Positions 27,017 through 40,985 of a stretch of 48,223 nucleotides of DNA are shown piece after piece. This DNA is from Rhodothermales bacterium (GTDB lineage: Bacteria; Bacteroidota; Rhodothermia; Rhodothermales; VXPQ01): positions 1 through 48,223 of the forward strand of contig JAJDWX010000014.1 of the NCBI GenBank assembly GCA_022825385.1, given 5' to 3'. How positions within the stretch are numbered: the first letter of the stretch is position 1; each line of letters opens with the position of its first letter. The notes beneath the pieces are model-generated. The model was given only the letters and a program-made list of their open reading frames with translations, had not been told where the DNA came from and searched no databases. Both the position numbers and the translations under genes were made by a program.

Positions 27017-27101
27017 GGCGCAAGGGATTCAGGTGCATGGAGATACGAAACAGAAAAGATTACAGACATACAGACACATCGAACCCTGAAACATAACCTC
27101 T

Positions 27102-28145
27102 TCACGGAAAATAAATGCAAGCGGGGGAAGGAATATCCAGTCCCTCGTCCGTAGCGGACAACCGTCCGGTGGCCTCGTCGATCTCGAAAACGACAATGCG
27201 ATCCGTATGTCGGTTGCCCACGAGCAGGAACCGATCATGCAGGCAGAAATTGCGCGGCCAGCGCCCGCCGGTAGGCATATGCTGCACGGCCCGCAGTCCC
27301 TGAGGGCCGATTTCGAATGCGACGATACTGTCGTGCCCCCGGTTCGATCCGTACAGAAACCGCCCGTTCGGATGCGCATGCAGGTCCGCCGAATCGTTGC
27401 GCTCCGCGAACCCCTCTGGCAAGGTGGAAATCGTCTGCGTTTCCGTAAGCCGGCCCCGGACGGCGTCCCAATCGAACGCAGTAACCGTGGACCCCAATTC
27501 ATTGATTGCGAAGGCCCGCGCGCCATCGGGATGAAAAACGAAATGCCGGGGCCCGGCGCCCGGCGCGAGATCGACGAAAGCCGGATCTCCGGGATGCAAA
27601 CCGCCGCGCTCGTCCAGCCGGTATATCCGCACCCGATCCTGCCCCAGATCTGCCACGACCGCATAGCGACCCGCCCTGTCGGGCACGACGCAATGCGCGT
27701 GCGGACCTTCCTGCCGGGCGGGATTGACGCCCGAGGCGCCCTCGTGCTGCACAAGCGAAACCGCCTCGCTTACCCCGCCATCCTGGCGCACGGCGAACGA
27801 AGCAACGCTTCCGCTGGTGTAATTGGATACCAGCGCGAACCGCCCGTCCGGCGTAAGCGCCACATAGCACGGATCCGCCCCCTGCGTGGGAACCGCATTC
27901 ACCGGATGCAGGTCGTTCCCGTCGATGCGGAACGCATGCAGCCCGCCGCCGAACGCCCCCCCGAATTCCAGCGTCTCGCTAACGGCGTACAAAAATTGTC
28001 CGGCGGCGTCCGCCGCGAGGAACGAAGGATTGCGAATGCCCCCCGCATGGCCCGTAATCCGCATTGCGCCACTGCGCAGGTCGAACTGTCCGATATAGAT
28101 TCCCTTGCTCCCCCGCTCCGAATACGTCCCTGCGTAAAAAGTCAT
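27102..28145 (-). CDS. Lactonase family beta-propeller (6-phosphogluconolactonase type)
   Basis: The ATG at 28145 overlaps the stop of the amidohydrolase gene by 4 nt (ATGA) and gives 347 residues starting MTFYAGTYSERGSKGIY, the usual beginning of YkgB/Pgl-type lactonases. Repeats such as GADPCYVALTPDGRFALVSNY, HAHCVVPDRAGRYAVVADLG and GPRHFVFHPDGARAFAINE mark a seven-bladed propeller. Members open sugar lactones such as 6-phosphogluconolactone. Its coupling to an amidohydrolase and a ROK kinase suggests a sugar catabolic step. No signal peptide is seen. Confidence 0.9.
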   Translation of the reverse strand: MTFYAGTYSERGSKGIYIGQFDLRSGAMRITGHAGGIRNPSFLAADAAGQFLYAVSETLEFGGAFGGGLHAFRIDGNDLHPVNAVPTQGADPCYVALTPDGRFALVSNYTSGSVASFAVRQDGGVSEAVSLVQHEGASGVNPARQEGPHAHCVVPDRAGRYAVVADLGQDRVRIYRLDERGGLHPGDPAFVDLAPGAGPRHFVFHPDGARAFAINELGSTVTAFDWDAVRGRLTETQTISTLPEGFAERNDSADLHAHPNGRFLYGSNRGHDSIVAFEIGPQGLRAVQHMPTGGRWPRNFCLHDRFLLVGNRHTDRIVVFEIDEATGRLSATDEGLDIPSPACIYFP

Positions 28146-29545
28146 TCTGCCGTCCATGGCTCCTTGGAAATGCCGTTCAAATCCCATGCGACGCGACCCG
28201 CTCGCAGGGTAAGTTCCACCTCGATTTTGCGGTCGCCCTCCATTCGGTATCCTTCCACGTCCCAAAACCCGAAATCCCCTTCGCGGACCCGAAACACCGC
28301 TATGTCCGCCTCCGCCCCCACGTCCAGATGCCCCAGTTCTTCGCGCCGTATGACTTGCGCCGGAGACCAGGTGGACGCCCGTACGACCGCTTCGAGCGGC
28401 ATGCCGAGATTAAGGAATTTGGACATCACGTTCGCCATGTCCTTCATCCCGTGGTTCATGCTGCCCGTATGCAGGTCCGTACTAATCGTATGCGGCCACA
28501 AACCCGCTTCCGTAGCGGGAACGGCCACAGAATACATGAAGCTGCCGCCCCCATGCCCCACATCGAATACGATACCCCGTTCGGCGGCCTCCAGCGCAAA
28601 GGGCCGCAGCGCCCCATCCTCCACGATCGGTTCGCGGCGCGACACCGCAGCGTAGGCATGGGTGAAAATATCGCCGGGGCGAAGATAGTCCAGGAGCAGT
28701 TCGCGCAAGGGCAAGGGCGGATCTGAACGCCCGAAGTCGATCATCACGGGGATATCGGCCTGCCGCCCCGCCTCCACCGCCCGCTCTACCGGAGTCCAGT
28801 CGGGGCCCAGGTAATGCGCCAGTTTGACGCCCACGACCACGTCCGCATGCAGCCCGGCCGACATGGCGGCGAGTTTGGGGTCCATGTCGGCCACGTCCTG
28901 CTCGATGGGTTCTCCCTTCATCCCCTGCCCGACGATATTCAGAAACGCCAGTACGCGGGTTTCCGAATGCCGCACCGTTTGCTCTACGAACAGGCGGATG
29001 GTGCGCCAGCCCGGGCCGCCCGTATCCACGATCGTCGTTACGCCGGACCGGAACGTGAAGGCATCCGGGGGCAGGCTGCCATAACTGTTCGCCAGATACT
29101 GATCCGGGACCGTCCCGTGAAACACATGGGCGTGCATATCGATGAAACCCGGCGCCACATACAGCCCGGAAACGTCCACCACCTGCGCGGCGCGCGCCGG
29201 GTCGATCCGTTCGGCCACCTCCGCGATGCGTCCGTCGGCGACGCCCACGTCCCGGACGCCGTACACGCCGGTTTTCGGGTCGATCACATGCCCGCCCGCA
29301 AGGAGCAGGTCCAGATCGGGATCGGAAACGCGCTCGGGCATAGCGGGCAAGGTCGTCCTGGAAGCGGCGCGGGACATCGCAGAAGCAGGCGAAAACGGGG
29401 AGAAAGCAGCGCGGGCCAACATCCCGGAAGCATTCTCCCGAACCGGATTTTCCTGTCCGGCGACGCATTCCGGCATGCACGGCAACAGCATACAAGCAAT
29501 CAGGGACAACCGGCGCAGGAAACCTTTTCTTGCGGCTTTCTTCAT
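28142..29545 (-). CDS. Amidohydrolase/deacetylase family metallohydrolase, exported
   Basis: The protein has 467 residues with an N-terminal hydrophobic signal. Metal ligands expected for the amidohydrolase superfamily are present: HxH in FIDMHAHVFHG, the bridging lysine in VGVKLAHYLGPDW, a histidine in IFTHAYAA, another in FDVGHGGG and the aspartate in ISTDLHTGS. The pattern fits the dihydroorotase-like amidohydrolase/deacetylase branch, which acts on N-acyl amino compounds such as N-acetylated amino acids or amino sugars. It sits between a ROK kinase gene and a lactonase gene. Confidence 0.88.
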   Translation of the reverse strand: MKKAARKGFLRRLSLIACMLLPCMPECVAGQENPVRENASGMLARAAFSPFSPASAMSRAASRTTLPAMPERVSDPDLDLLLAGGHVIDPKTGVYGVRDVGVADGRIAEVAERIDPARAAQVVDVSGLYVAPGFIDMHAHVFHGTVPDQYLANSYGSLPPDAFTFRSGVTTIVDTGGPGWRTIRLFVEQTVRHSETRVLAFLNIVGQGMKGEPIEQDVADMDPKLAAMSAGLHADVVVGVKLAHYLGPDWTPVERAVEAGRQADIPVMIDFGRSDPPLPLRELLLDYLRPGDIFTHAYAAVSRREPIVEDGALRPFALEAAERGIVFDVGHGGGSFMYSVAVPATEAGLWPHTISTDLHTGSMNHGMKDMANVMSKFLNLGMPLEAVVRASTWSPAQVIRREELGHLDVGAEADIAVFRVREGDFGFWDVEGYRMEGDRKIEVELTLRAGRVAWDLNGISKEPWTAE

Positions 29546-29635
29546 GATTTTTTCACGATATTATGGTGTTTCCGGGTTGTTCGCGCGTTCCTTTTCGTTT
29601 CCAATTCGTCGCCGCGTCCCTTATCCGCAAGCCCG

Positions 29636-30619
29636 CTATGCGTCCGCCGCGCCGCGCTGCGCCCGCTCCCAGGCAAGCGCCGCCGCGCCCAGCACCCCCG
29701 CATGATTTCCCAGTTCCGAAAGCGCGACGGGCACCGAACTCCCCCGAGGATACCGAAAAACATGTTCGTCGATATGCGCCTGCACCCGATCCAGAAAATG
29801 TTCGGCGGCGTTCGCGCCTCCTCCCCCAAGGATAATGATTTCCGGGGCGTACATATGCGCCACGCTGACCAGAAACCATCCAAGGGCCGTCGTCCACCGA
29901 TCCAGCACGTCCAGGCACAGGGCGTCCCGCTCTTCGGCTCCGCGAATGACCGCCGCGAAATCTACGGCATGGGGATTCTCGAAATATACGTCGTTCAGCG
30001 CCGACGGCAAGCCGCGCTGAAGTCCGTCTCGCGCCATCATGGCCAGGCTCGCCGCCGCGCACAGGATATTGGCCGTGCCCATGCCCCGCGTAATGCAGCG
30101 GCGGTCGCTATGCGCATCCTGAATAATATGGCTTGCCTGGGTGCCGAACATGAGATGCGGATCGCGAAGCACCTTGCCGTCGAGCATCACGCCCGACCCC
30201 ACGCCGGTTCCCAGCGTAATCGCGACAACCCACTTGCGGCCCTGCGCCAATCCGTAGCGGGCTTCCGCAAGAATGCACAGGCGCCCGTCGTTGTCCGCAA
30301 TAACCGGAACGCCCGTGGCCTGCGCCAGCCGGGGCACGATGGGAAACCCTTCCACTTGCAATTTGCCGGGCAAGAGTACGCTCCCGAATTCCGGATCGAC
30401 GGCGCCGGGGAACCCCAACCCGATCGCGGCGGGCCGCCGTCCAAGCGCTTGCGCAATCCGATCCGTCTCGTCCGTCATGGCCTGGAGGATGTCTTCCGGC
30501 GGCAAGCCAAACCCCGAAGGCTGCACCCCCGGCTCCAGCAGGCTCCCGGAAGCCGACACGGCCCCGCTCTTGATGCGGGTGCCGCCCACGTCGAATCCTA
30601 TGACGTACTCCTCAGGCAT
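29636..30619 (-). CDS. ROK family sugar kinase
   Basis: The ATG at 30619 gives 327 residues starting MPEEYVIGFDVGGTRIKSG, the ROK phosphate-binding motif. It overlaps the SIS gene by 8 nt. Further marks are the catalytic GFPGAVDPEFGS, the sugar-binding ADNDGRL, GTGVGSGVML and ILGGGGANAAEHFL. The canonical ROK zinc-finger CxCGxxGC is not present in its usual place. ROK kinases phosphorylate glucose, ManNAc or GlcNAc; together with the SIS and amidohydrolase genes, an amino-sugar substrate is plausible. Confidence 0.9.
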   Translation of the reverse strand: MPEEYVIGFDVGGTRIKSGAVSASGSLLEPGVQPSGFGLPPEDILQAMTDETDRIAQALGRRPAAIGLGFPGAVDPEFGSVLLPGKLQVEGFPIVPRLAQATGVPVIADNDGRLCILAEARYGLAQGRKWVVAITLGTGVGSGVMLDGKVLRDPHLMFGTQASHIIQDAHSDRRCITRGMGTANILCAAASLAMMARDGLQRGLPSALNDVYFENPHAVDFAAVIRGAEERDALCLDVLDRWTTALGWFLVSVAHMYAPEIIILGGGGANAAEHFLDRVQAHIDEHVFRYPRGSSVPVALSELGNHAGVLGAAALAWERAQRGAADA

Positions 30620-31403
30620 GCTCGCCACCCTTTCCGGCGTACATATGGGCCAGGCTCTTGCGGTAGGCCTCGTAGAAACGGTCCAGTTGCTCCTCGGCGC
30701 TCGCATTCCCGACGAACTGATGGCTTGGAAGCACTTCCGGGCGGACGCCTCTGGCCAGAAGCCGCTCCGCCACCTCCACGCGCAGCATATTGATCAACAT
30801 GCCGCCGGTGACGGTGGACGCCGGTCCCGTGCGCCACTCCATGCCCTCCAGTTCCAGTACGCAATCTCCCGGAGGGCACTGGTTGTCCAGCACCACGTCG
30901 GCCACGTCCACCAGTTTCTTGCCGGAGGAATGGGTCGCCGGCGAGCGTTCGCAATGCTCCCGGGACACAATGCCGATCACGGGCAAGCCCCGGCGGCGGG
31001 CGCCCAACGCCATTTCCACGATAAGCGGACGAATCCCGGAGGTCGAAATCACAATGAACGCATCGTGCGGACCAAACCGGAATCCTTTCAGAATTTCCTC
31101 GGCGTAGCCCTCGTATTTTTCGAGGAACAGCGGGCCGCGCAAGCCATTGGTCCCTACAATGGAAGCATGGTTCGACACCGCATGTTCCACGAGCGCCACG
31201 AACCCCACGAAGCATCCCTGCCTCGGGGTCATTTCCTCGCACATCATGCGGGAATGCCCGGCGCCGAACAGAAAAACGAGTCCGCCTTGGGCAATGCGCT
31301 CGGCGCACAACTCGGCGGCCTGTTCGATCCCGGGTATCTGCGTATCCCGCAGACGCTCCAGCAATGCAATGGTTTTGTCGTAGTAGGCTTGCGCAGATCC
31401 CAT
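30612..31403 (-). CDS. SIS domain sugar-phosphate protein
   Basis: The 263-residue protein carries a SIS domain: VFLFGAGHSRMMCEEM (phosphosugar contact), FIVISTSGIRPLIVEMA, and GLPVIGIVS. It resembles the UPF0309/'sugar isomerase domain' family. These bind or isomerise phosphosugars. The gene leads the minus-strand operon and overlaps the ROK kinase gene. Confidence 0.85.
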   Translation of the reverse strand: MGSAQAYYDKTIALLERLRDTQIPGIEQAAELCAERIAQGGLVFLFGAGHSRMMCEEMTPRQGCFVGFVALVEHAVSNHASIVGTNGLRGPLFLEKYEGYAEEILKGFRFGPHDAFIVISTSGIRPLIVEMALGARRRGLPVIGIVSREHCERSPATHSSGKKLVDVADVVLDNQCPPGDCVLELEGMEWRTGPASTVTGGMLINMLRVEVAERLLARGVRPEVLPSHQFVGNASAEEQLDRFYEAYRKSLAHMYAGKGGEHA

Positions 31404-31499
31404 GGGGATTTTTCAGGGGTAAAGGTTGGCGGTTTTGGGGTGGCGACGGGATATCGACAGCCGTAAGGTACTGATTCTTTGCGCGAATCTCTTTATTTT

Positions 31500-31679
31500 G
31501 CCGACGCGCTCCCGTCCCTGATCCTGAACGGCGGCGAAAACAAATTGCGCCCCGAGCGCAGGTTCGACGCAACGGTGTTCTATACGCGCAAAACGTTGTT
31601 GCAACGGAATCCGGATGGATGAACTACGCAGCCGCATTATGCGCGCCGTCAAAAGCCGCGACACCCAGCCGGAAATGGC
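31500..31679 (+). repeat. 180-bp direct repeat, left copy
   Basis: Positions 31500-31679 align without gaps to 33505-33684, offset exactly 2005 bp, with five mismatches noted by eye. The repeat covers about 115 bp upstream of vsr plus its first 65 bp. The two copies flank exactly the methyltransferase/endonuclease pair. This is the structure of an insertion with a long target duplication. The preceding 31404-31499 shows no gene. Confidence 0.95.
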
Positions 31680-31719: not shown

Positions 31720-31748
31720 TTGAACTTCTCGCTTCCGCCGCGTATTAT
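31720..31748 (+). promoter_or_regulatory. Sigma70-like promoter of the first R-M pair
   Basis: TTGAAC (31720-31725) and TATTAT (31743-31748) are spaced by 17 nt. It lies 25 nt before the ATG at 31774, so the leader would be only about 15-20 nt. Candidate starts at 31720 (TTG) and 31747 (ATG) fall inside the promoter and are rejected for that reason. Confidence 0.55.
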
Positions 31749-31773
31749 GGGGCATCACCGACCCGAATTCGCC

Positions 31774-32763
31774 ATGCCTGCCTCCAGCCGTACGGAACCG
31801 CTCCTGTCCACTTTCGCCGATCTGTTTTGCGGAATCGGTGGCTTCCACTACGCTGCCGAAGCGTTGGGGTTGCGTTGCGTCTTCGCCTCCGACATCGACA
31901 AGGCCGCCCAGGATCAATACGAGCACAACTTCGGGATGCGCCCAGACGGGGACATCACCAAAATCCACATCGAGAACATTCCGAGCCACGACATTCTGTT
32001 CGCCGGATTCCCATGCCAGCCGTTCTCAATCATCGGCAAGATGGAGGCCATGTCGGATAGCCGGGGTACGCTGATTTACGACGTGGCGCGCATCCTGTCG
32101 GTCAAATTCCCTAAAGCGTTTGTTCTGGAGAACGTGCGGCAACTCGCTTCGATCAACAAGGGCAAAACGCTTCGCCTGATTCTGGACGCGCTGGAAGAAA
32201 TAGGCTACGCCTGCTCCCATAAGATTCTGAACGCGCTCCATTTTGGATTGCCGCAAAAGCGCGAACGCCTGATCATTGTAGGCTTTCGAGACCGCGAAGC
32301 CCTGAAAACCTATGAATGGCCGAGAGAACGCAAGGCGTACAAACCCCTTTCGGGTATTCTGGAAAGAGACCCGCATGTCCGGCATTTTGCGAGCGAGCGA
32401 ATCCAGGCCAAACGCAAGGCGGCGCACACGCCCGCCGTCACTCCGTCCATTTGGCATGAGAACAAGGGAGGAAATATCAGCAGCCATCCGTTTTCTTGCG
32501 CCCTCCGGGCAGGCGCATCCTACAACTACTTGCTCGTGAACGGCGTAAGGCGATTGACTCCGCGAGAATTGCTGCGCTTGCAGGGTTTCCCGGAATCGTT
32601 CGAGGTGACAGGAACAGATTCGCAGATCAGAAAACAGGTCGGCAACGCCGTCCCTGTGCCTATGGTCAAAGCCGTCATTCAATCAGTGACCCATGCCGCC
32701 AACGCGACTTCGTTCAGGATACAGGAATCCCGAACCATACCCGCTGAACCAGTTCCCGCCTGA
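31774..32763 (+). CDS. DNA (cytosine-5) methyltransferase, first R-M system
   Basis: The 329-residue protein has all main C5 methyltransferase motifs in order: I FADLFCGIGGF, IV GFPCQPFS (catalytic Cys81), VI LENV (118-121), VIII QKRERLIIVGF, IX RLTPRELLRLQGFP and X QVGNAVPVPM. The target-recognition region is short, about residues 190-255. It methylates cytosine in DNA to protect host sites from the partner nuclease. Its 3' end overlaps the endonuclease gene by 71 nt. The DNA is more AT-rich than the flanking metabolic genes. The neighbouring vsr fits, because 5-methylcytosine deaminates to T. Confidence 0.95.
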   Translation: MPASSRTEPLLSTFADLFCGIGGFHYAAEALGLRCVFASDIDKAAQDQYEHNFGMRPDGDITKIHIENIPSHDILFAGFPCQPFSIIGKMEAMSDSRGTLIYDVARILSVKFPKAFVLENVRQLASINKGKTLRLILDALEEIGYACSHKILNALHFGLPQKRERLIIVGFRDREALKTYEWPRERKAYKPLSGILERDPHVRHFASERIQAKRKAAHTPAVTPSIWHENKGGNISSHPFSCALRAGASYNYLLVNGVRRLTPRELLRLQGFPESFEVTGTDSQIRKQVGNAVPVPMVKAVIQSVTHAANATSFRIQESRTIPAEPVPA

Positions 32764-33427
32764 CGTCATAGAGAAGATCGCGTATCATTTGGCGCATCTG
32801 CGCGCTATAGGACACACCGATATTCGGGGAGGGGAATTTGAACGCGTGTTTGCCGACGCCATCGGCGGAGAAGCGCGGGGCAAGCCTCTGGGCGTCGCCG
32901 ATCTTTATCTTGAAAATTTTGCATGGTCGGTCAAGACCGTCAAGACATTCCAACCGCATAAAGCGATTGGCAAACAGATTCGCCTGATCAGCGGGCGCAA
33001 TAGCCCCGTATACTCAAAGGGCATCGAAAACCCGTTCGACGATTTGCAAAAGACCGGAGAAGCCGTTATCGAGGTTTACAACAACCGTATAGCCGAAGCC
33101 CATGAAGAATACGATCATCTGCGGTTTCTCGTCCTGATCCGTAACTTTGCAAAAATGACGTTCACGCTCTACGAGCGTTCGTTGCATCCTTTTCCCGCCA
33201 ACGATTACCACTGGACCGAGAACAGGCGAGGCAATTTCGAGGCATACCGGAATAATCAGCACCGTTTTACATGGCAGCCCCACGGCAGTCAATTCACCAT
33301 CATCGAAACAGTGCCGAGAGGGGCTCTCCGCTTCCACATAACAAAGCGCGTTCCGGTACTTACCCGCGAAGACGTCATGCGCCACATCGGATGGGATTCC
33401 GACTGGGTAGAAACCGTTGAGGATTAA
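32693..33427 (+). CDS. Putative type II restriction endonuclease
   Basis: The 244-residue protein overlaps the methyltransferase gene and fills the rest of the inserted segment, so a restriction role is expected. The segment ADLYLENFAWSVKTVK looks like a PD-(D/E)XK core (acidic residue, then V-K at the end of the second strand). C-terminal beta-rich residues (HRFTWQPHGSQFTIIE) may contact DNA. I cannot name a family or recognition site. The start at 32693 could be later; no internal ATG is near. Confidence 0.7.
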   Translation: MPPTRLRSGYRNPEPYPLNQFPPDVIEKIAYHLAHLRAIGHTDIRGGEFERVFADAIGGEARGKPLGVADLYLENFAWSVKTVKTFQPHKAIGKQIRLISGRNSPVYSKGIENPFDDLQKTGEAVIEVYNNRIAEAHEEYDHLRFLVLIRNFAKMTFTLYERSLHPFPANDYHWTENRRGNFEAYRNNQHRFTWQPHGSQFTIIETVPRGALRFHITKRVPVLTREDVMRHIGWDSDWVETVED

Positions 33428-33471: not shown

Positions 33472-33627
33472 ATGAATCACCGTTTAAGAAAGCCGCGCCT
33501 TTCCGCCAACGCGCTCCCGTCCCTGATCCTGAACGGCGGCGAAAACAAATTGCGCCCCGAACGCAGGTTCGACGCAACGGTATCCTATACGTGCAAAACG
33601 TTGTTGCAACGGAATCCGGATGGATGA
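33472..33627 (+). CDS. Small ORF overlapping vsr, remnant or leader peptide
   Basis: An ATG at 33472 opens 51 codons ending LLQRNPDG and overlapping the vsr start by 8 nt. Residues 12-51 lie in the 180-bp repeat. The left copy keeps the same reading frame without an ATG and with a few amino-acid changes, joined to a different N-terminal side (RESLYFADALPS). It is probably the C-terminal end of a gene that once preceded vsr, joined by the insertion to a new start. Expression is uncertain. Confidence 0.35.
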   Translation: MNHRLRKPRLSANALPSLILNGGENKLRPERRFDATVSYTCKTLLQRNPDG

Positions 33628-33684
33628 ACTACGCAGCCGCATTATGCGCGCCGTCAAAAGCCGCGACACCCAGCCGGAAATGGC
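33505..33684 (+). repeat. 180-bp direct repeat, right copy
   Basis: This is the copy of 31500-31679 that contains the functional start of vsr. Between the copies lie 1825 bp (31680-33504) that hold just the promoter, the methyltransferase and the endonuclease. Confidence 0.95.
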
Positions 33685-34009
33685 TGTGCGGCGGCTCGTC
33701 CACGCCATGGGCTATCGTTACCGGCTGCATCGCAAGGATTTGCCTGGAAAACCCGATCTCGCCTTTATTTCTCGGCGCAAGGCGATCTTTGTCCATGGAT
33801 GTTTCTGGCACGGTCACGACTGTCCGCACGGATCGCGGGAGCCGAAAACGAACCGGGATTACTGGATACCCAAGATTGCGAAGACCCGCGAGCGGGACAA
33901 AATCACCCTGGAGCGACTTTTGAAAATGGGCTGGGAATCGCTCGTGATCTGGGAATGCGAGATCGACCCTGCGTTGCCGGGAAGACTACGGACGTTCCTG
34001 GAAACGTAG
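33620..34009 (+). CDS. vsr: Very short patch repair endonuclease Vsr
   Basis: The 129-residue protein has the Vsr family order: MRAVKSRDTQPEMAVRRL, YRLHRKDLPGKPDLAF (catalytic Asp), IFVHGCFWHGHDC (catalytic and zinc-binding His/Cys) and the end GWESLVIWECEI. Vsr nicks next to T:G mismatches that arise when 5-methylcytosine deaminates, and starts repair to C:G. It therefore serves the cytosine methyltransferases nearby. Its 5' end is duplicated upstream of the R-M pair. It converges with a lipoprotein gene. Confidence 0.95.
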   Translation: MDELRSRIMRAVKSRDTQPEMAVRRLVHAMGYRYRLHRKDLPGKPDLAFISRRKAIFVHGCFWHGHDCPHGSREPKTNRDYWIPKIAKTRERDKITLERLLKMGWESLVIWECEIDPALPGRLRTFLET

Positions 34010-34029
34010 GCAATCGCCACGCAAGCCGT

Positions 34030-34638
34030 TTAAAGCGAGGCGATGGACTGAAGATGCGGTATGCTCGCGATAATCGCCGGGCGATCTTTCCCGTGGTAGC
34101 GCACCTCCTCGTCCGTGCGGCGGAGCCACTCCTCCGCATTCTGCATCGCTTCATGGGCAGCCGTTCGGATCTGTTCTTTTGTCCAATACCCATCCAGCAT
34201 GCGAAGCGACGCCAGAACCATGTCTGCGTGGGGGGATTCCATGTCCGTCAGCATGTCCGTGAAATAGCCGACGGCCTGCTGCGGGGCGTTATCGTCCTGG
34301 AGCAAGCTATTCAGAAGTTTGGGCGCCATGAGCGCCAGCACATTCGTCGCAATGGCTTCGTCCGTCGCCGCTTCTTCGACGATGGGCCGGGCGCCCCGGT
34401 ACAATTCCTCGCCAGAGATGACGCCATTCGCATGCTGGGTTGCCAGCATGTCCAGCTGGCTTGCCACCTGCATAAAACGCTCGATATGCGCTTCATTCGG
34501 CATGGCTGTTTGACTGTCCTGTTCCGCATTGGAGGCAGATGTGTCTGCGGGACCCTTGCTGCAACCTGACAGAAGCGCCAGCGCAAGAATCGGCAAGCCC
34601 ATGAATCGGGCAAAACGGCGAAAAAGATGTTTGGTCAT
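34030..34638 (-). CDS. Lipoprotein of unknown function
   Basis: The 202-residue protein starts MTKHLFRRFARFMG with a hydrophobic stretch and lipobox (ALLSGC). The mature part is helical and acidic with no recognised domain (IERFMQVASQLDMLATQHAN, LLNSLLQDDNAPQQAVGYF). It sits between vsr and the second methyltransferase, and nothing links it to either. Confidence 0.7.
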   Translation of the reverse strand: MTKHLFRRFARFMGLPILALALLSGCSKGPADTSASNAEQDSQTAMPNEAHIERFMQVASQLDMLATQHANGVISGEELYRGARPIVEEAATDEAIATNVLALMAPKLLNSLLQDDNAPQQAVGYFTDMLTDMESPHADMVLASLRMLDGYWTKEQIRTAAHEAMQNAEEWLRRTDEEVRYHGKDRPAIIASIPHLQSIASL

Positions 34639-34846
34639 GACTTTTCCCTCCCTTGGTCAAGATGGATATCCCTGCATGGGCTGAACGCACGGGCGAGCCG
34701 TTGGGTCAGATTCGGACCTCGGCTCAGGCGCATGCGACAAGTATTAAGGAAGTACGCTCTTTGTTTCCAAGCGCATCAAAAAATCATCTTTCTTTGATTT
34801 ATTGCAACGAAGTAACGCGATTCGGCACTTTCGTATATAAGTCCCA

Positions 34847-36154
34847 TCAGGCGTCAAGTCGTGAACGCGCCTTGGAACAACGCGGGTCGTCGGAGTCTAT
34901 AGCCAAGGACAAATCTCTACCTTTATGAATGGCCGCTAACACCCTGCCATGCAGTTCAGTGAAAAGCGGCGGGACGGCCTCACCAATCATTTGGCGAACA
35001 GGGGTATGCCCCCAGGAATCAATCGCCCCCCCCCAAGTAAAGTCGGGCGGAAAGGTTTGCAGGTGAGCACACTCGGCAGGGCTTAACACGCGATTCTCCC
35101 ACGGATGCAAGGTGCGATCACTGCCGACATGTCCGCTTGCAGTCGTTATCGTGGCAGCTGGTCGATCTGGAGCCATTCGACGATAACTTGAACTACGGAA
35201 GCCCTTGATCAAGCGCCAATATCCGTTTGATTCGCGAAGAATCGGACGAAGAAGCAGAGGATCCTTGCAATTTGGACAGATAGCGGTCTCCTTTCGTATA
35301 TCTTCCAGGCCGCACCCGGGACAAGTGTTGGATTCCCAGGCACTCGCCCCACTCCCAGGGGGAATCGCAGAAACCATCTCATACAACTTGCCAGGCCAGA
35401 CGGGAATTCGGTGCATCGGATGATCCCCAACTTGGGCTGAGTCAGCAGAACGGGCGTCCAGAGACGGCAAGCCAAGCTCCCCCAAAGATTGATCGATCGT
35501 TACTGCCGCCGGAAGCCCTTGCCCGCCGTGGGTGGGTACGGGAAACGGCGCACGGTCCGTACGCTCAATAATCTCCAACGCGGTCGTACCTTTTCTTACA
35601 AATGTCAGAAATGCACGGGTTCGATTTTGGGGGACCCCAAACTCACACAGGTTCACTAATAGCGGGTAGACACGGTAATCTCCTTGCAGGCGGCGACAAA
35701 GCAATTTGGCAGCTGATATCGGCTCGTTTCCCGAAGGGTCGCGCACCTTTCGCCGCAAGAATGCAGACACATTCTCGACAACAACAAAGATTGGTTTGAG
35801 TTCAGCCGCCACGCGGGCAATGGGCAAAACAAGCAAATTTCGTCCATCGCGCGAACCAGCGTCGGCGTCGGCCTCCCGGCCTCGCCCTCCCCTGGCGGTA
35901 CTCATCCCCTGGCAAGGTGGGCATCCAGAAAGCAACGTTGGGGGCTCGGAACCATGGGCCTCTCTATATGAATCGACCACGATAGGCCATGTTTTTCGCA
36001 GATCCCCCTGAACGGTTGCTGCCTCAGGGTGGTTGAGAGAAGCAACTGCAAGGCGCCGCTGCACGATCTCAGAAATCACCTTAAAATCGAAACCAGCCAC
36101 GGCGTAGCCAACATCGCCAGCGCCACAATTCGAAAACAGGCTCACGGCTTTCAC
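34847..36154 (-). CDS. DNA (cytosine-5) methyltransferase with zinc-binding insert, second system
   Basis: The 435-residue protein starts at a GTG that overlaps the upstream gene's stop (GTGA, 4 nt). Motif I is an unusual FSNCGAGDVGYAVAGF, motif IV GCPPCQG (catalytic Cys81), motif VI VVENVS, motif VIII PQNRTRAFLTF, motif IX LSPAECAHLQTFP and motif X QMIGEAVPPLF. The target-recognition region contains CPGC (278-281) and CPNC (293-296), a four-cysteine zinc-ribbon-like insert. It is the modification partner of the GHKL-nuclease protein. The DNA is AT-richer than the flanks. Confidence 0.92.
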   Translation of the reverse strand: MKAVSLFSNCGAGDVGYAVAGFDFKVISEIVQRRLAVASLNHPEAATVQGDLRKTWPIVVDSYREAHGSEPPTLLSGCPPCQGMSTARGGRGREADADAGSRDGRNLLVLPIARVAAELKPIFVVVENVSAFLRRKVRDPSGNEPISAAKLLCRRLQGDYRVYPLLVNLCEFGVPQNRTRAFLTFVRKGTTALEIIERTDRAPFPVPTHGGQGLPAAVTIDQSLGELGLPSLDARSADSAQVGDHPMHRIPVWPGKLYEMVSAIPPGSGASAWESNTCPGCGLEDIRKETAICPNCKDPLLLRPILRESNGYWRLIKGFRSSSYRRMAPDRPAATITTASGHVGSDRTLHPWENRVLSPAECAHLQTFPPDFTWGGAIDSWGHTPVRQMIGEAVPPLFTELHGRVLAAIHKGRDLSLAIDSDDPRCSKARSRLDA

Positions 36155-38202
36155 TGACCCGTACCTCCCGGAGATCGCCGCTCCGCCTCCATCTTGACAC
36201 GATCTTGAGCATTAAGAAACTCCTCGTTCGCCTTGATCGCCCTCCGAAGAAAGTCGTTCCACCCGATTTGCTTTATTTTCTCCCGACCCTTCCACAACTG
36301 GTAGGCCCCACGCTTATCTCTATCGGCGATTTGAACCTTGTCACATACAAGGTCGATTACCCATCCATCCGGGCATTCTTTCGCCATTTCCTGATTTTCT
36401 TTGAAGAATCCCTCAAAAGCCTCGATATAGTTGTAGAGACGGTCCCAATCTTTGTTTCCAAATGTACGCCCCACGGCCTTAATCTCGACTATGTGGAGTT
36501 TTTGACCCATTTGGACCAGGGTAAGGTCCGGTCGCTTTTTCTGGTGATCTATTACAAGAACCACATCCTGACCATGCATCTTGCGATAGTAATCCTCGAA
36601 ACGCCTTTTGAAGAATTTGAGACCCTGGTTGACAGTGATAGGCGTCCATGTGGCTTCAACCAGCCAAGGCGCCTCTGCAATAATTTCCTGGAGTGCAGAT
36701 TCGGACTCATTGCCACCGATCACCGTCTCAAGACGACGAATCGCCTGAACGCGTTCGTGGGCGATTTGGGCATACGAGGCCATCTCGGCAATCCGCGTCT
36801 TGGAAAAAAGGTCGATGAGCCGGTCAACGCCACCCTCATCGTCAAAAATCTCTTGGTTGAACGCCTCAAATGCCTCCATAAGTGCCTTGTGAGGAGCGAC
36901 AGAGAGGATTACATTTGCAAGACCGTCCACATATTCCTGGTCCGTCAATTCGTCTTCTGCAGCGAATCGCCCGATTTGCTTGCCCAACTCAATAGCCGTG
37001 GAAATCACTTCGGCGTCCGTAAAGCGGGCTTGCGCTTTCGCTTTCAGTTCAGCCGCATCCATGAAGAGGCTTTCGACACGGGCTCGGCGGGGACTCCGCG
37101 AAGCCGCGCCAATATGTTTGATCCACTCCGCCCCCCAACTCCGCAGAGCCCTACCGTGGTCTGATTCCCAAAGGATATCTTGTCGATCAGTCGTGATGAG
37201 GTCTTCGCCGTCATCCTCATCAAGCCAATCAGCATGAATTTCGCCAACCAGGTATGAGCGAAGCGTGAACTCTCCAGTGAAGCCCGCGGGCTGCTCAAAG
37301 TCCCTGGTCGTGGCCACGATCTTTCCCCTGGCGTATATCCGCACTCCAGCCATCTCTTCGTTTTTGTAGGCCTCTTTTGCAAGGGCCATCCATCCCGTGA
37401 CGGGGAGTTGCCTTCCGTCCCTCAGTTTCACCGGTTCGATAGAACAATCAATGCGCGTACCCTCCATGGTCGGGATATCGAACCTGCCGATCTCGAATGG
37501 CGGATTCTCGTTCGGATTCCGGGTATCCTCAACCACAATCTTGAAATCAGCTTGCTGGAGCCCAAACCGCCTTGCAAGTTGTCGATCAAAGGTTGTTTGA
37601 TCCGGCACGCGCTTGGGAAGAAAATTAAGAAGACGCACGGTCGTACCAGACTGGTCCCGGCAGGTCCGGTCCAACGCCCCTTTCTCCATCTCGACGGGAC
37701 CGTCCTTCTCGGAGAGTATCTTTCCGTAGTCCATTTTGAAATGGGAAACCGTGTAACCCTCATCTGTTGGATCGCCGCCAGCGGAAATGACTTCGATGAC
37801 CCTGCAAACCCCGAAGGGAGCGAGCTTGCCGATGCCCTTGCGTCCCATGACCGGACGTTTCTTCTGCCTCGACCGGGCTCCCTGATCTATATCCTTACGT
37901 CGATCCTTGCCCACCAGCAAGAAATGTTTGTTTGCATCTGAGGGAGTCATGCCGTGCCCATCGTCCTTTACTTCAATAACATGGTCATATCCTTCGATCA
38001 CGCCCGATTCAGGATTTCGCTTGGCCAGCAGCGTACTGAGCGGGACTCGAATTGTGACGTTCTCAGCATCTGCATCGTACGCGTTCGCTACGAGCTCGGC
38101 TACTACGGCGCTGACGCGGTCGTACAATCGAACGCCCAGTTTGTCCACCGTCATGCGGGATATCCGCATCCAATATTTTTCGTGTTCTTCTCTTGGCGCC
38201 AT
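36151..38202 (-). CDS. GHKL (MORC/MutL-like) ATPase fused to PD-(D/E)XK nuclease
   Basis: The 683-residue protein begins with a complete GHKL ATPase: N box ELVANAYDADA (about 36-46), G1 DDGHGM (80-85) and G2 GRKGIGKLA (120-128). The middle part (about 200-480) has the S5-like and helical regions of MORC-type ATPases. The C terminus has a nuclease core RPDLTLV...HIVEIKA with Asp559, Glu573 and Lys575, preceded by LQEIIAEAPWLVE, reminiscent of Shedu/DUF4263-type nucleases. GHKL-nuclease proteins coupled to C5 methyltransferases are known as predicted ATP-dependent R-M systems; this gene overlaps the methyltransferase by 4 nt. Cleavage specificity is unknown. Confidence 0.88.
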   Translation of the reverse strand: MAPREEHEKYWMRISRMTVDKLGVRLYDRVSAVVAELVANAYDADAENVTIRVPLSTLLAKRNPESGVIEGYDHVIEVKDDGHGMTPSDANKHFLLVGKDRRKDIDQGARSRQKKRPVMGRKGIGKLAPFGVCRVIEVISAGGDPTDEGYTVSHFKMDYGKILSEKDGPVEMEKGALDRTCRDQSGTTVRLLNFLPKRVPDQTTFDRQLARRFGLQQADFKIVVEDTRNPNENPPFEIGRFDIPTMEGTRIDCSIEPVKLRDGRQLPVTGWMALAKEAYKNEEMAGVRIYARGKIVATTRDFEQPAGFTGEFTLRSYLVGEIHADWLDEDDGEDLITTDRQDILWESDHGRALRSWGAEWIKHIGAASRSPRRARVESLFMDAAELKAKAQARFTDAEVISTAIELGKQIGRFAAEDELTDQEYVDGLANVILSVAPHKALMEAFEAFNQEIFDDEGGVDRLIDLFSKTRIAEMASYAQIAHERVQAIRRLETVIGGNESESALQEIIAEAPWLVEATWTPITVNQGLKFFKRRFEDYYRKMHGQDVVLVIDHQKKRPDLTLVQMGQKLHIVEIKAVGRTFGNKDWDRLYNYIEAFEGFFKENQEMAKECPDGWVIDLVCDKVQIADRDKRGAYQLWKGREKIKQIGWNDFLRRAIKANEEFLNAQDRVKMEAERRSPGGTGQ

Positions 38203-38320
38203 AGGTAATGCCCCATCGACAATGATGCTATCGCCTTAAAATACGACTCCCGCGATATTTATGGAACGGGAAACCATTTCCGTGCGGGAAAAATGTCCTA
38301 AAAACCGCCCACACCCCCCA

Positions 38321-39694
38321 TCACCCCCTTCCCATCCAGTACGCCTCGATTTCTTCCAGGCTGCGTCCCTTTGTTTCTGGCAATACTTTCCAGCCAAGCC
38401 AGATGGTCGGGGAACACAGCGCGGCGAACAGCCAGAACGTCCCGGCGGGCGACAGCGTATCCAGCAGCCAGGGCACCGTCTGCCCCACCAGCGCCGTCCC
38501 GCCCCACAACGCAAAGGTGGCGATGGACATGGCCCGCCCCCGCACCCGCGTCGGGTACATCTCCGAAAGCAACACCCAGATGACTGGCCCGAACGACGCC
38601 GCGAAGCAGGCGATGTAGATCAGGATGAAAACAAGCAGCCACGGGCCGTCCGTCACGCCGAACCAGAACAGCCCTCCGATGACCAGCAACGAAACGACCA
38701 ACCCGGATACGCCCCCAACGAGGAGCGGCCTTCTGCCGAGATCGTCTATTTTCCAGATGGCGACCAGCGTAAACAGTACATTCACCACGCCGATCACCAC
38801 CTGCCCGCCCAGCGCGTCGCCCAGCGTGAATCCGGCCTCTTCCAGAATCCTCGGACCATAATAAATAATGGCGTTGATGCCGCTCACCTGCGTCAGAAAA
38901 CCCAGCGCCACGCCCAGCAGGATCGAAAACCGGATGCCCCGATGCCCCAGAATACGCTTCCAGGACTCCGGCTCCTGGGCCAGCGCCGTCTCGATTTCCG
39001 CCACCTGGCCGTCGGCGGTTTCCGCGTCCGCCACCTGCGCCAGAATGTTTCGGGCTTCGCCGGAACGTTTCCGGGCCACCAGCCAGCGCGGGCTTTCCGG
39101 CACCAGCAAAAGCAACGCCAGGAAACACAGCGCAGGCACGGCTTCGCTGCCAAGCATCCCGCGCCACACCTCGTCGCCCGCGAAAATGCCGTCGGATACG
39201 CCCGGCGCCCGCCGCAACAGCCAGGCATTTACGAAATACGACGTCAGAATGCCGACCGTGATGGCGAGTTGATACATAGCCACCATGCGCCCTCGCACGC
39301 GCGAAGGGGATACCTCGGAGATGTACAGGGGCGACAGCATGGAAGCCACCCCGACGCCTACGCCGCCGACAAGCCGGTATACGATGAGCATGAAATGCCC
39401 GCCGGAATACGCGCATCCTACCGCAGAAAGCAAAAACAGCGCGGCGGACAACATCAGGACGCGCTTGCGCCCGAACCGGTCGCTCAGAAAGCCCGCCACG
39501 GAAACGCCCAGAATGCACCCTATCAGCGCCGAACTGACATACCACCCCTCCATCACCGGTCCCAGCGCGAACTTGTCCTTCACGAACCCGATGGTGCCGG
39601 AAATCACCGCCGTATCGTAGCCGAACAGGAATCCGCCAAGCGACGCGATCAGGGCGAGGCGCCACAAATAGCTGGACGAAGAACGAGGCGCCAT
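38321..39694 (-). CDS. Sugar porter family MFS transporter
   Basis: The ATG at 39694 (MAPRSSSSYLWRLALIAS) gives 457 residues with twelve membrane segments. Sugar porter signatures are GFLFGYDTAVISGTIGF, DRFGRKRVLML, PESPRWLVARKR, QVSGINAIIYYGP, DLGRRPLL and the end PETKGRSLEEIE. The family imports xylose, glucose, galactose or inositol, usually with H+. It follows a LysR regulator gene by 5 nt, so its expression is probably tied to that gene. Confidence 0.93.
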   Translation of the reverse strand: MAPRSSSSYLWRLALIASLGGFLFGYDTAVISGTIGFVKDKFALGPVMEGWYVSSALIGCILGVSVAGFLSDRFGRKRVLMLSAALFLLSAVGCAYSGGHFMLIVYRLVGGVGVGVASMLSPLYISEVSPSRVRGRMVAMYQLAITVGILTSYFVNAWLLRRAPGVSDGIFAGDEVWRGMLGSEAVPALCFLALLLLVPESPRWLVARKRSGEARNILAQVADAETADGQVAEIETALAQEPESWKRILGHRGIRFSILLGVALGFLTQVSGINAIIYYGPRILEEAGFTLGDALGGQVVIGVVNVLFTLVAIWKIDDLGRRPLLVGGVSGLVVSLLVIGGLFWFGVTDGPWLLVFILIYIACFAASFGPVIWVLLSEMYPTRVRGRAMSIATFALWGGTALVGQTVPWLLDTLSPAGTFWLFAALCSPTIWLGWKVLPETKGRSLEEIEAYWMGRG

Positions 39695-39699
39695 GGCGG

Positions 39700-40605
39700 T
39701 TACGTCACGGAAGACAAAGCGGGCGCGGCGGAGGATACGGAACGCGCCGCTTCCACCAGGCGCCGCAGTACCGGGTCCGGATCGTCGGCAAGCCATGCCA
39801 TTCTGAGCGCGAGACGGGGCGAAGGACCGGCAAACGGCACGAACCGCACGTCTTGCGCGCCGGGCCGATTCCGCAGGGAAGCTGGCGCAAACGCCACGCC
39901 CAGGCCCGCCGCCGCCATGCCGAGGGCTGCGCCAACCCGGTTCGCCCGCTGCGCAATGCGCGGCCCGAACCCCGCCTGCCGACACAGCGCTACAAGGTCA
40001 TCGAACAAGGCCGGCTCGAACGCCCGATCCACCAGCACAAACGATTCGTCGGCCAGGTCGGCCAGCGCGACTTCCGGGGCGGCGGCAAGCGGATGGCGGG
40101 CGGGAAACGCCAGCATCACTTCTTCGCGCGCCACGACTTCGGACGCAAACTCTTCGGGAAAAGCGCTGCCGAACGCAGCGGAAATGGTTCGCCGCCGGAG
40201 CGCGTACGGTTGTTCGTGCGACCGCATTTCGTGCAGGGAGATCGCAACCTGGGGACAGCGCTCCCGGAACCGGCGCAGGCAACGCGGCAGCGCGCCGTAC
40301 ATGGCGTACCCCGTAAACCCGATGGCAAGGCGGCCCTCCTCCCCCCGCGCGGCCCGCTGCACTGTCCGGCGGACCCATTCCACCTCGTCCAGCAAGCGGC
40401 GGGCTTCCTCCAGAAACGCCGCGCCCACTCCGGTCAACTCCACCGCGTGCCCGCTCCGGTCAAACAATTGCGCGTCCAGTTCCTCCTCGAGGCGCTGGAT
40501 ATGGCGACTCAGCGTAGGCTGGGTCAGAGACAGGCGGTCGGCGGCCCGGCTGAAGTTTTTTTCTTCGGCGGCCGCAACGAACGAAAGCATGTGCTGGGTA
40601 TCCAC
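39700..40605 (-). CDS. LysR family transcriptional regulator
   Basis: The N-terminal winged helix-turn-helix is clear: MLSFVAAAEEKNFSRAADRL then SLTQPTLSRHIQRLEEEL. A GTG at 40605 gives the typical start (V/M-DTQHMLSF); an in-frame ATG at 40650 lies inside a palindromic operator, so the GTG is preferred. The C-terminal effector domain has the usual LAIGFTGYAMYGALP and GLGVAFAPASL. LysR proteins activate or repress in response to a small ligand, binding T-N11-A boxes. Two such boxes lie just upstream and four more near the decayed dehalogenase genes. The downstream MFS gene is 5 nt away. Confidence 0.9.
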   Translation of the reverse strand: MDTQHMLSFVAAAEEKNFSRAADRLSLTQPTLSRHIQRLEEELDAQLFDRSGHAVELTGVGAAFLEEARRLLDEVEWVRRTVQRAARGEEGRLAIGFTGYAMYGALPRCLRRFRERCPQVAISLHEMRSHEQPYALRRRTISAAFGSAFPEEFASEVVAREEVMLAFPARHPLAAAPEVALADLADESFVLVDRAFEPALFDDLVALCRQAGFGPRIAQRANRVGAALGMAAAGLGVAFAPASLRNRPGAQDVRFVPFAGPSPRLALRMAWLADDPDPVLRRLVEAARSVSSAAPALSSVT

Positions 40606-40634
40606 GACCGGCGAGGCGGGCTGTCCAGAGGAAC

Positions 40635-40682
40635 TATGCAAGAATTGCATAAAGATAGGCACTTCTATGCATTTTTTCTATA
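40635..40682. promoter_or_regulatory. Two LysR-type boxes 31 bp apart upstream of the LysR gene
   Basis: TATGCAAGAATTGCATA (40635-40651) is a perfect 7-3-7 palindrome containing T-N11-A. TATGCATTTTTTCTATA (40666-40682) is a degraded copy. The distance, 31 bp, equals that of the four-site array at 41195-41304. This is probably the autoregulatory operator of the LysR gene. Confidence 0.7.
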
Positions 40683-40766
40683 GATGATTTTTTATTGAAC
40701 CTGAAAACGAAAAACGCAATGGCGTATAGCAGCGATACGGGTTAATCCCGCAACGTTTGCCCGCAT

Positions 40767-40985
40767 TCAGGCCATTATATCCGCGAGTTCCCCGAAATCC
40801 CTGACGACGATATCGACCGCAGGGTCCGGGGCCAGGTCCGTCGTTTGGGACGGGCCGTATTCCCGGGTTCGATAGACGAAGGCCGCGCGGAACCCCACTG
40901 CCTTCGCCGCCAGCAGATCGGCGTTATGGGCGGCCACCATCATAACCTGCTGCGGACGGAGGCCAGGGATCAAGCCGGAGTCAGT
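40767..40985 (-). pseudogene. C-terminal fragment of HAD-type 2-haloacid dehalogenase
   Basis: The reading frame gives GLRPQQVMMVAAHNADLLAA followed by GFRAAFVYRTREYGPSQTTD and a short tail. This is the third and fourth motif region of type II haloacid dehalogenases (MMVAAHN.DL, YGP.Q..DL). The N-terminal nucleophile half is missing, so the gene is broken. A longer ORF to 41072 is read through unrelated sequence. Confidence 0.75.

Follow-up and report, generated by a model that had tools for sequence, protein, structure and literature searches.

The window, that is, the whole 48,223-nucleotide stretch of Rhodothermales DNA that was analysed, contains two overlapping genes whose joint function is the question addressed here. 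The upstream gene, R, encodes a GHKL ATPase and a predicted nuclease in a single chain, and the downstream gene, M, encodes a C5-cytosine DNA methyltransferase (Table 1). Taken together, the evidence makes it probable that the pair is a two-gene restriction-modification (R-M) system, consisting of an ATP-gated, Type II-like restriction enzyme and its cognate 5mC methyltransferase.

Table 1. Features of the R-M locus, in coordinates of the window.
Feature	Position	Strand	Basis
R, paraMORC3-type restriction enzyme (predicted), GHKL-S5 ATPase and PD-(D/E)XK nuclease, 683 aa, ATG start	36151..38202	-	HATPase_c_3 and NF050001 matches, close orthologues
GHKL-S5 ATPase module of R, residues 14-372; E36, N40, D43, D80-G82-G84, G120-RKGIGK126, S5 lysine K294	37087..38163	-	fully or almost fully conserved in 45 relatives
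Predicted C-terminal nuclease domain of R, residues 499-683	36154..36708	-	AlphaFold2 secondary structure, conservation, SduA_C/DUF4263 in 11/45 relatives
GTGA overlap, R stop TGA / M start GTG	36151..36154	-	4-nt overlap also in close orthologues
M, C5-cytosine DNA methyltransferase, 435 aa, GTG start, probable cognate modification enzyme	34847..36154	-	PF00145, AlphaFold2, catalytic residues
Four-cysteine insert, putative zinc ribbon, C278xxC281-x11-C293xxC296, between motifs VIII and IX, the target-recognition region of M	35267..35323	-	conservation
Exchangeable cassette	34277..38314		comparison with a congener whose matching flanks enclose a different pair
Vsr mismatch endonuclease, likely accessory to 5mC systems at the site	33620..34009	+	TIGR00632, E 8e-45

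The open reading frames, their coordinates, the GTGA overlap, residues D559, E573 and K575 and the CxxC-x11-CxxC pattern are all present as the original prediction gave them. A GGGAGG sequence lies about 9 nt upstream of the GTG start of M. Both genes are conserved over their full length in six genomes (the window included), at 66-72% identity and with gene order and overlap retained. In comparisons with two relatives, codon position 3 takes 56-63% of the nucleotide differences, versus 14-20% at position 2, a distribution which indicates that R and M are under selection as proteins. Linkage of the endonuclease and methyltransferase genes, a feature of Type II R-M systems, is evident from the 4-nt overlap and its conservation. 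In a set made up of the window genome and 98 relatives, an overlapping M accompanies each of the six intact close R genes (the window included), and the sole genome with a broken R also has a broken M. In the decayed copy of genome G082 (L038 / L108) R is split over three open reading frames and the match to M is limited to the first 48 codons.

R matches the Pfam profile HATPase_c_3 (E 2e-17) and aligns with NCBIfam model NF050001, which describes the BbrUII/HgiDII restriction enzymes, over residues 10-671 (model positions 1-650 of 659, E 8e-77), with a score of 259 bits that lies below the curated cut-off of 550. The same model is matched by all 45 R relatives in the conserved-residue set, and two PADLOC models for Type II restriction enzymes also match R. 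Residues E36, N40, D80, G82, G84, K122, K126 and K294 are conserved in 45/45 of these relatives. A structure search with the model of the whole R protein, in which the ATPase module dominates the matches, superimposes 283 residues, spanning 22-371, on MORC3 (5ix2; Z 19.9, rmsd 3.8); Hsp90 (Z 18.7) and MORC2 are also among the matches of the module, which is thus predicted to adopt a GHKL-type fold. An assignment of R to the MORC proteins sensu stricto was considered and rejected: the S5 motif GhXhhpXXRhl is replaced by G286-VRIYARG-K294-IV, with a lysine for the arginine, and the lysine is kept in 45/45 relatives. Since this MORC-specific motif is lacking, R is classified on its sequence as a paraMORC, not a MORC. 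In a phylogenetic tree R falls within a clade of 36 members (100/100), separate from the BbrUII/HgiDII clade (100/100).

The C-terminal PD-(D/E)XK fold of R is predicted from its motif, its secondary structure and weak profile matches in relatives. In the AlphaFold2 model a helix carrying E501 precedes a strand opened by D559, E573-x-K575 is located on the next strand, and a further helix and strand follow. D559 and E573 are conserved in all 45 relatives, K575 in 42 and E501 in 38; by its position in the helix before D559, E501 completes the E-D-ExK signature of paraMORC3. The nuclease part of R has no match in a sequence search of the PDB, where the matches listed for R comprise only Hsp90-type and MutL ATPases. 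The profile SduA_C (PF14082, DUF4263) matches 11 of the 45 relatives (best E 4.5e-6), and two PADLOC SduA models match 5 and 2 of them, whereas the Pfam search finds no SduA_C in R itself at E up to 1. The Shedu-like flavour proposed earlier for the nuclease is supported by these matches in relatives, though not by a match in the window protein.

M matches PF00145 (E 3e-30), and its confident AlphaFold2 model (pLDDT 91) has the C5 methyltransferase fold and matches M.HaeIII, M.HhaI and DNMT1. The catalytic residues C81, E127-N128, Q176, R178 and R180 (in PCQ, ENV and QxRxR) are intact and present in 52/52 M relatives. Motif I reads F-S-N-C-G instead of the usual F-x-G-x-G; the asparagine is common to 40 of the 52 relatives and is G or S in the other 12, which points to a family trait rather than damage. 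In the four-cysteine insert C278 and C293 are conserved in 52/52 relatives, C296 in 51/52 and C281 in 50/52, and the cysteine pattern suggests that the insert binds zinc. Both oddities had been noticed before; the insert is nearly invariant among the 52 relatives, and the asparagine of motif I occurs in most of them. With M included, the profiles, the structure model and the conserved residues bear out the original prediction of a MORC/MutL-like ATPase and a PD-(D/E)XK nuclease in one chain, partnered with a C5 methyltransferase.

The insert is absent from the methyltransferases of the BbrUII-type pairs that were compared. It is not unique to GHKL-linked methyltransferases, because a four-cysteine methyltransferase on Escherichia coli plasmid p12579_5 (L196:3931-5845) lies beside a convergent gene for a non-GHKL protein of 221 aa. 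The latter has no Pfam, NCBIfam or PDB match and may be a small restriction enzyme of Type II. A sensing role, as had been suggested for M, finds no support: the catalytic motifs are intact, the nearest equivalents are protective modification enzymes, and the insert-bearing relative on p12579_5 accompanies an unrelated protein.

The architecture of R is already known, both from its end-to-end alignment with the BbrUII/HgiDII family and from the paraMORC3 proteins. Iyer, Abhiman and Aravind (2008, PMC2292703) predicted that paraMORC3 proteins belong to R-M systems, and described their C-terminal E-D-ExK nuclease and the DNA methylase and Vsr genes found beside them. The window pair resembles paraMORC3 in its GHKL, S5 and E-D-ExK nuclease parts and in its cytosine methylase and Vsr neighbours; zinc is not mentioned in the text of that paper, which hence does not describe an insert of the window type. 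With the BbrUII/HgiDII systems the pair shares a GHKL ATPase with a C-terminal nuclease and a neighbouring C5 methyltransferase, and M.HgiDII is an experimentally characterised 5mC enzyme for GTCGAC (PMC5867850). However, the window R lies far below the cut-off and in another clade, with about 25% identity in R, its gene precedes that of M whereas the bacterial BbrUII-type pairs examined have M then R, and M differs in its insert and its motif I. In Escherichia phage PhiR44_1 (PV340563) a ParaMORC3 gene and a Dcm gene likewise place a GHKL-nuclease next to a C5 methyltransferase, but the R proteins are 24% identical, the phage protein is a true BbrUII-type member (751 bits), the gene order is convergent and the insert is lacking. 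VcSduA, of Shedu type I-D, also has a GHKL ATPase followed by a PD-(D/E)xK nuclease, and mutation of either one abolishes phage defence (PMC12137116); unlike R, it is the product of a single-gene system. With M.HgiDII characterised and VcSduA mutants tested, the earlier remark that little experimental work exists is out of date. What seems new here is not the fused design, but the branch with a four-cysteine insert in the target-recognition region. The literature searched contains no description of this branch or of its modular pairing of one methyltransferase family with varied GHKL proteins, which is not proof of novelty.

The resemblance to VcSduA in domain order and motif raises the alternative that R is a Shedu type I-D enzyme, which would act on DNA structure or ends rather than on sequence, with M as a bystander or a limiter of self-damage. 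This is consistent with the SduA_C matches in relatives and with a Shedu enzyme that nicks DNA at a fixed distance from its ends (PMC12904381). It is nevertheless unlikely in view of the missing SduA_C match in R, the overlap and close linkage with M, which single-gene Shedu systems do not have and which all six intact close orthologues retain, and the best full-length model for R, which is that of a restriction enzyme. An R-M system remains the preferred reading.

Comparison with congeners shows that the locus is a site of exchange. In congener G001 the flanks (window positions 27028-31679, 33505-34276 and 38315-40965) are 93-95% identical, while the intervening cassette is replaced by an open reading frame with a SIR2-like N-terminus and, arranged M then R, a true pair of the BbrUII/HgiDII type (L042, 797 bits). 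The SIR2-like N-terminus (ILLGAGSSIPAGYPST) of this 406-aa frame (L042:5395-6615(-)), which adjoins the pair, was recognised by eye from a GAGSS motif. Congener G005 (L210:1383-3363) carries at the same site, beside Vsr, a different C5 methyltransferase of 333 aa and a 338-aa frame with an EVKF motif, and congener G004 has about 250 bp between its left and right flanks, where neither Vsr nor R-M genes are present. Given these other pairs, and their absence from G004, the pair is an accessory, exchangeable cassette at an R-M hotspot within the genus. Vsr repairs T:G mismatches arising from deaminated 5mC. A 180-bp direct repeat, 97% identical (31500-31679 and 33505-33684), flanks a second R-M-like insertion, absent from G001, which contains a C5 methyltransferase (31720-32763(+)) and an overlapping 244-aa frame (32693-33427(+)); the latter has no Pfam, NCBIfam, PADLOC or PDB match.

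When 84,980 species genomes are scanned, 54 loci with the four-cysteine methyltransferase family are obtained. They are distributed over Rhodothermota, Gemmatimonadota, Actinomycetota, Chloroflexota, Planctomycetota, Pseudomonadota and other taxa, among them named strains of Pseudomonas, Lysobacter and Vandammella. IMG/VR contains five distant relatives in a search with the methyltransferase alignment and no match in a search with R. A GHKL gene adjoins the methyltransferase in 48/54 loci, incomplete or split in L064 and L077; of the remainder, L087, L103, L106 and L109 are contig ends or marginal matches, and L066 and L108 have a decayed R. The order is nearly always R then M, often with overlaps of 1-4 nt, and 26/54 loci contain a Vsr gene. 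In five proteobacterial loci (L070, L078, L082, L089 and L102) a second GHKL-nuclease gene, encoding 698-764 aa, is convergent with the R-M pair, in some cases with Vsr in between.

The nuclease attached to the GHKL partner varies in these loci and may be SduA-like, Mrr-like (L069, L088 and L093) or NucS-like (L110 and L195). The GHKL proteins paired with four-cysteine methyltransferases at L069, L088, L093 and L076 comprise 833-855 aa, and three of them have a C-terminal Mrr_cat match. Some R genes in other parts of the tree share just 24-26% identity with the window R, and their partner methyltransferases are 39-55% identical to M. The association of one M family with divergent R proteins and with GHKL-Mrr and GHKL-NucS-like partners argues that the R-M partnership is modular.

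This variation bears on a second alternative, in which M docks with R and supplies the site recognition, so that both would act in a joint restriction complex resembling those of Type I or Type ISP enzymes. The M family stays paired with GHKL proteins across the different nucleases, and at L068, L072, L083 and L084 M is still 52-55% identical where R has fallen to 24-26%. On the other hand, relatives in the BbrUII/HgiDII family count as restriction enzymes of the ordinary kind, and the methyltransferase of p12579_5 carries the insert next to a non-GHKL protein; a shared complex is accordingly considered improbable. It is similarly doubtful that the system has a fixed core, made up of the four-cysteine methyltransferase and the GHKL ATPase, to which a swappable nuclease is added. 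If it did, either the methyltransferase or the ATPase clamp, and not the nuclease, would recognise the site, and the ATP-gated restriction complex would be unlike ordinary Type II enzymes. Mrr-type nucleases belong to a superfamily with methyl-dependent members, and their presence in some pairings is the one indirect point in favour of a modification-dependent system, in which R would recognise the mark written by M; this is very improbable, since the host chromosome would itself be cut by such a pair and an intact R always occurs with M among the relatives searched.

Under-representation of 80 palindromes was compared between six carriers of the pair and five non-carriers, each represented by a sample of 67-237 kb; none separates the two groups, and no site can be inferred by avoidance. 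TCCGGA was considered as a candidate and rejected: its ratio is low in every carrier (0.27-0.78), but two non-carriers show low values as well. The observed/expected ratio of GTCGAC, the M.HgiDII site, is 0.24 in the sample of the window's own genome, 0.97 in another carrier, G088, and 0.36-0.59 in members of the genus that lack the pair.

By analogy with characterised relatives, the R-M pair would function as follows. M would methylate cytosine (5mC) at its site in the host DNA, with the four-cysteine insert probably helping to form the DNA-reading surface. R would bind DNA as a dimer, in which the ATPase modules close upon ATP binding; such an ATP-driven clamp is plausible from the predicted fold. 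The C-terminal PD-(D/E)XK domains would then cut DNA with an unmethylated site, for example entering phage or plasmid DNA, while methylation by M would protect the host. This assignment of a restriction enzyme and a protecting methyltransferase draws on the tested relatives M.HgiDII and VcSduA, and the association with Vsr and the joint decay of the two genes in G082 are consistent with an active 5mC system. It is further backed by the NF050001 alignment, the linkage in 48/54 loci and the different C5 pairs at the same site, and weakened by the low NF050001 score, the position of R outside the BbrUII/HgiDII clade and the failure of palindrome avoidance to point to a site.

GHKL-nuclease fusions lie where three subjects meet, namely restriction enzymes of Type II, defence by the Shedu family, and the MORC silencing ATPases of eukaryotes with their origin. 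The branch described here constitutes a compact and widespread set of pairs for asking what a restriction enzyme uses ATP for and where DNA recognition resides, and within the same genus a natural comparison is provided at one chromosomal site.
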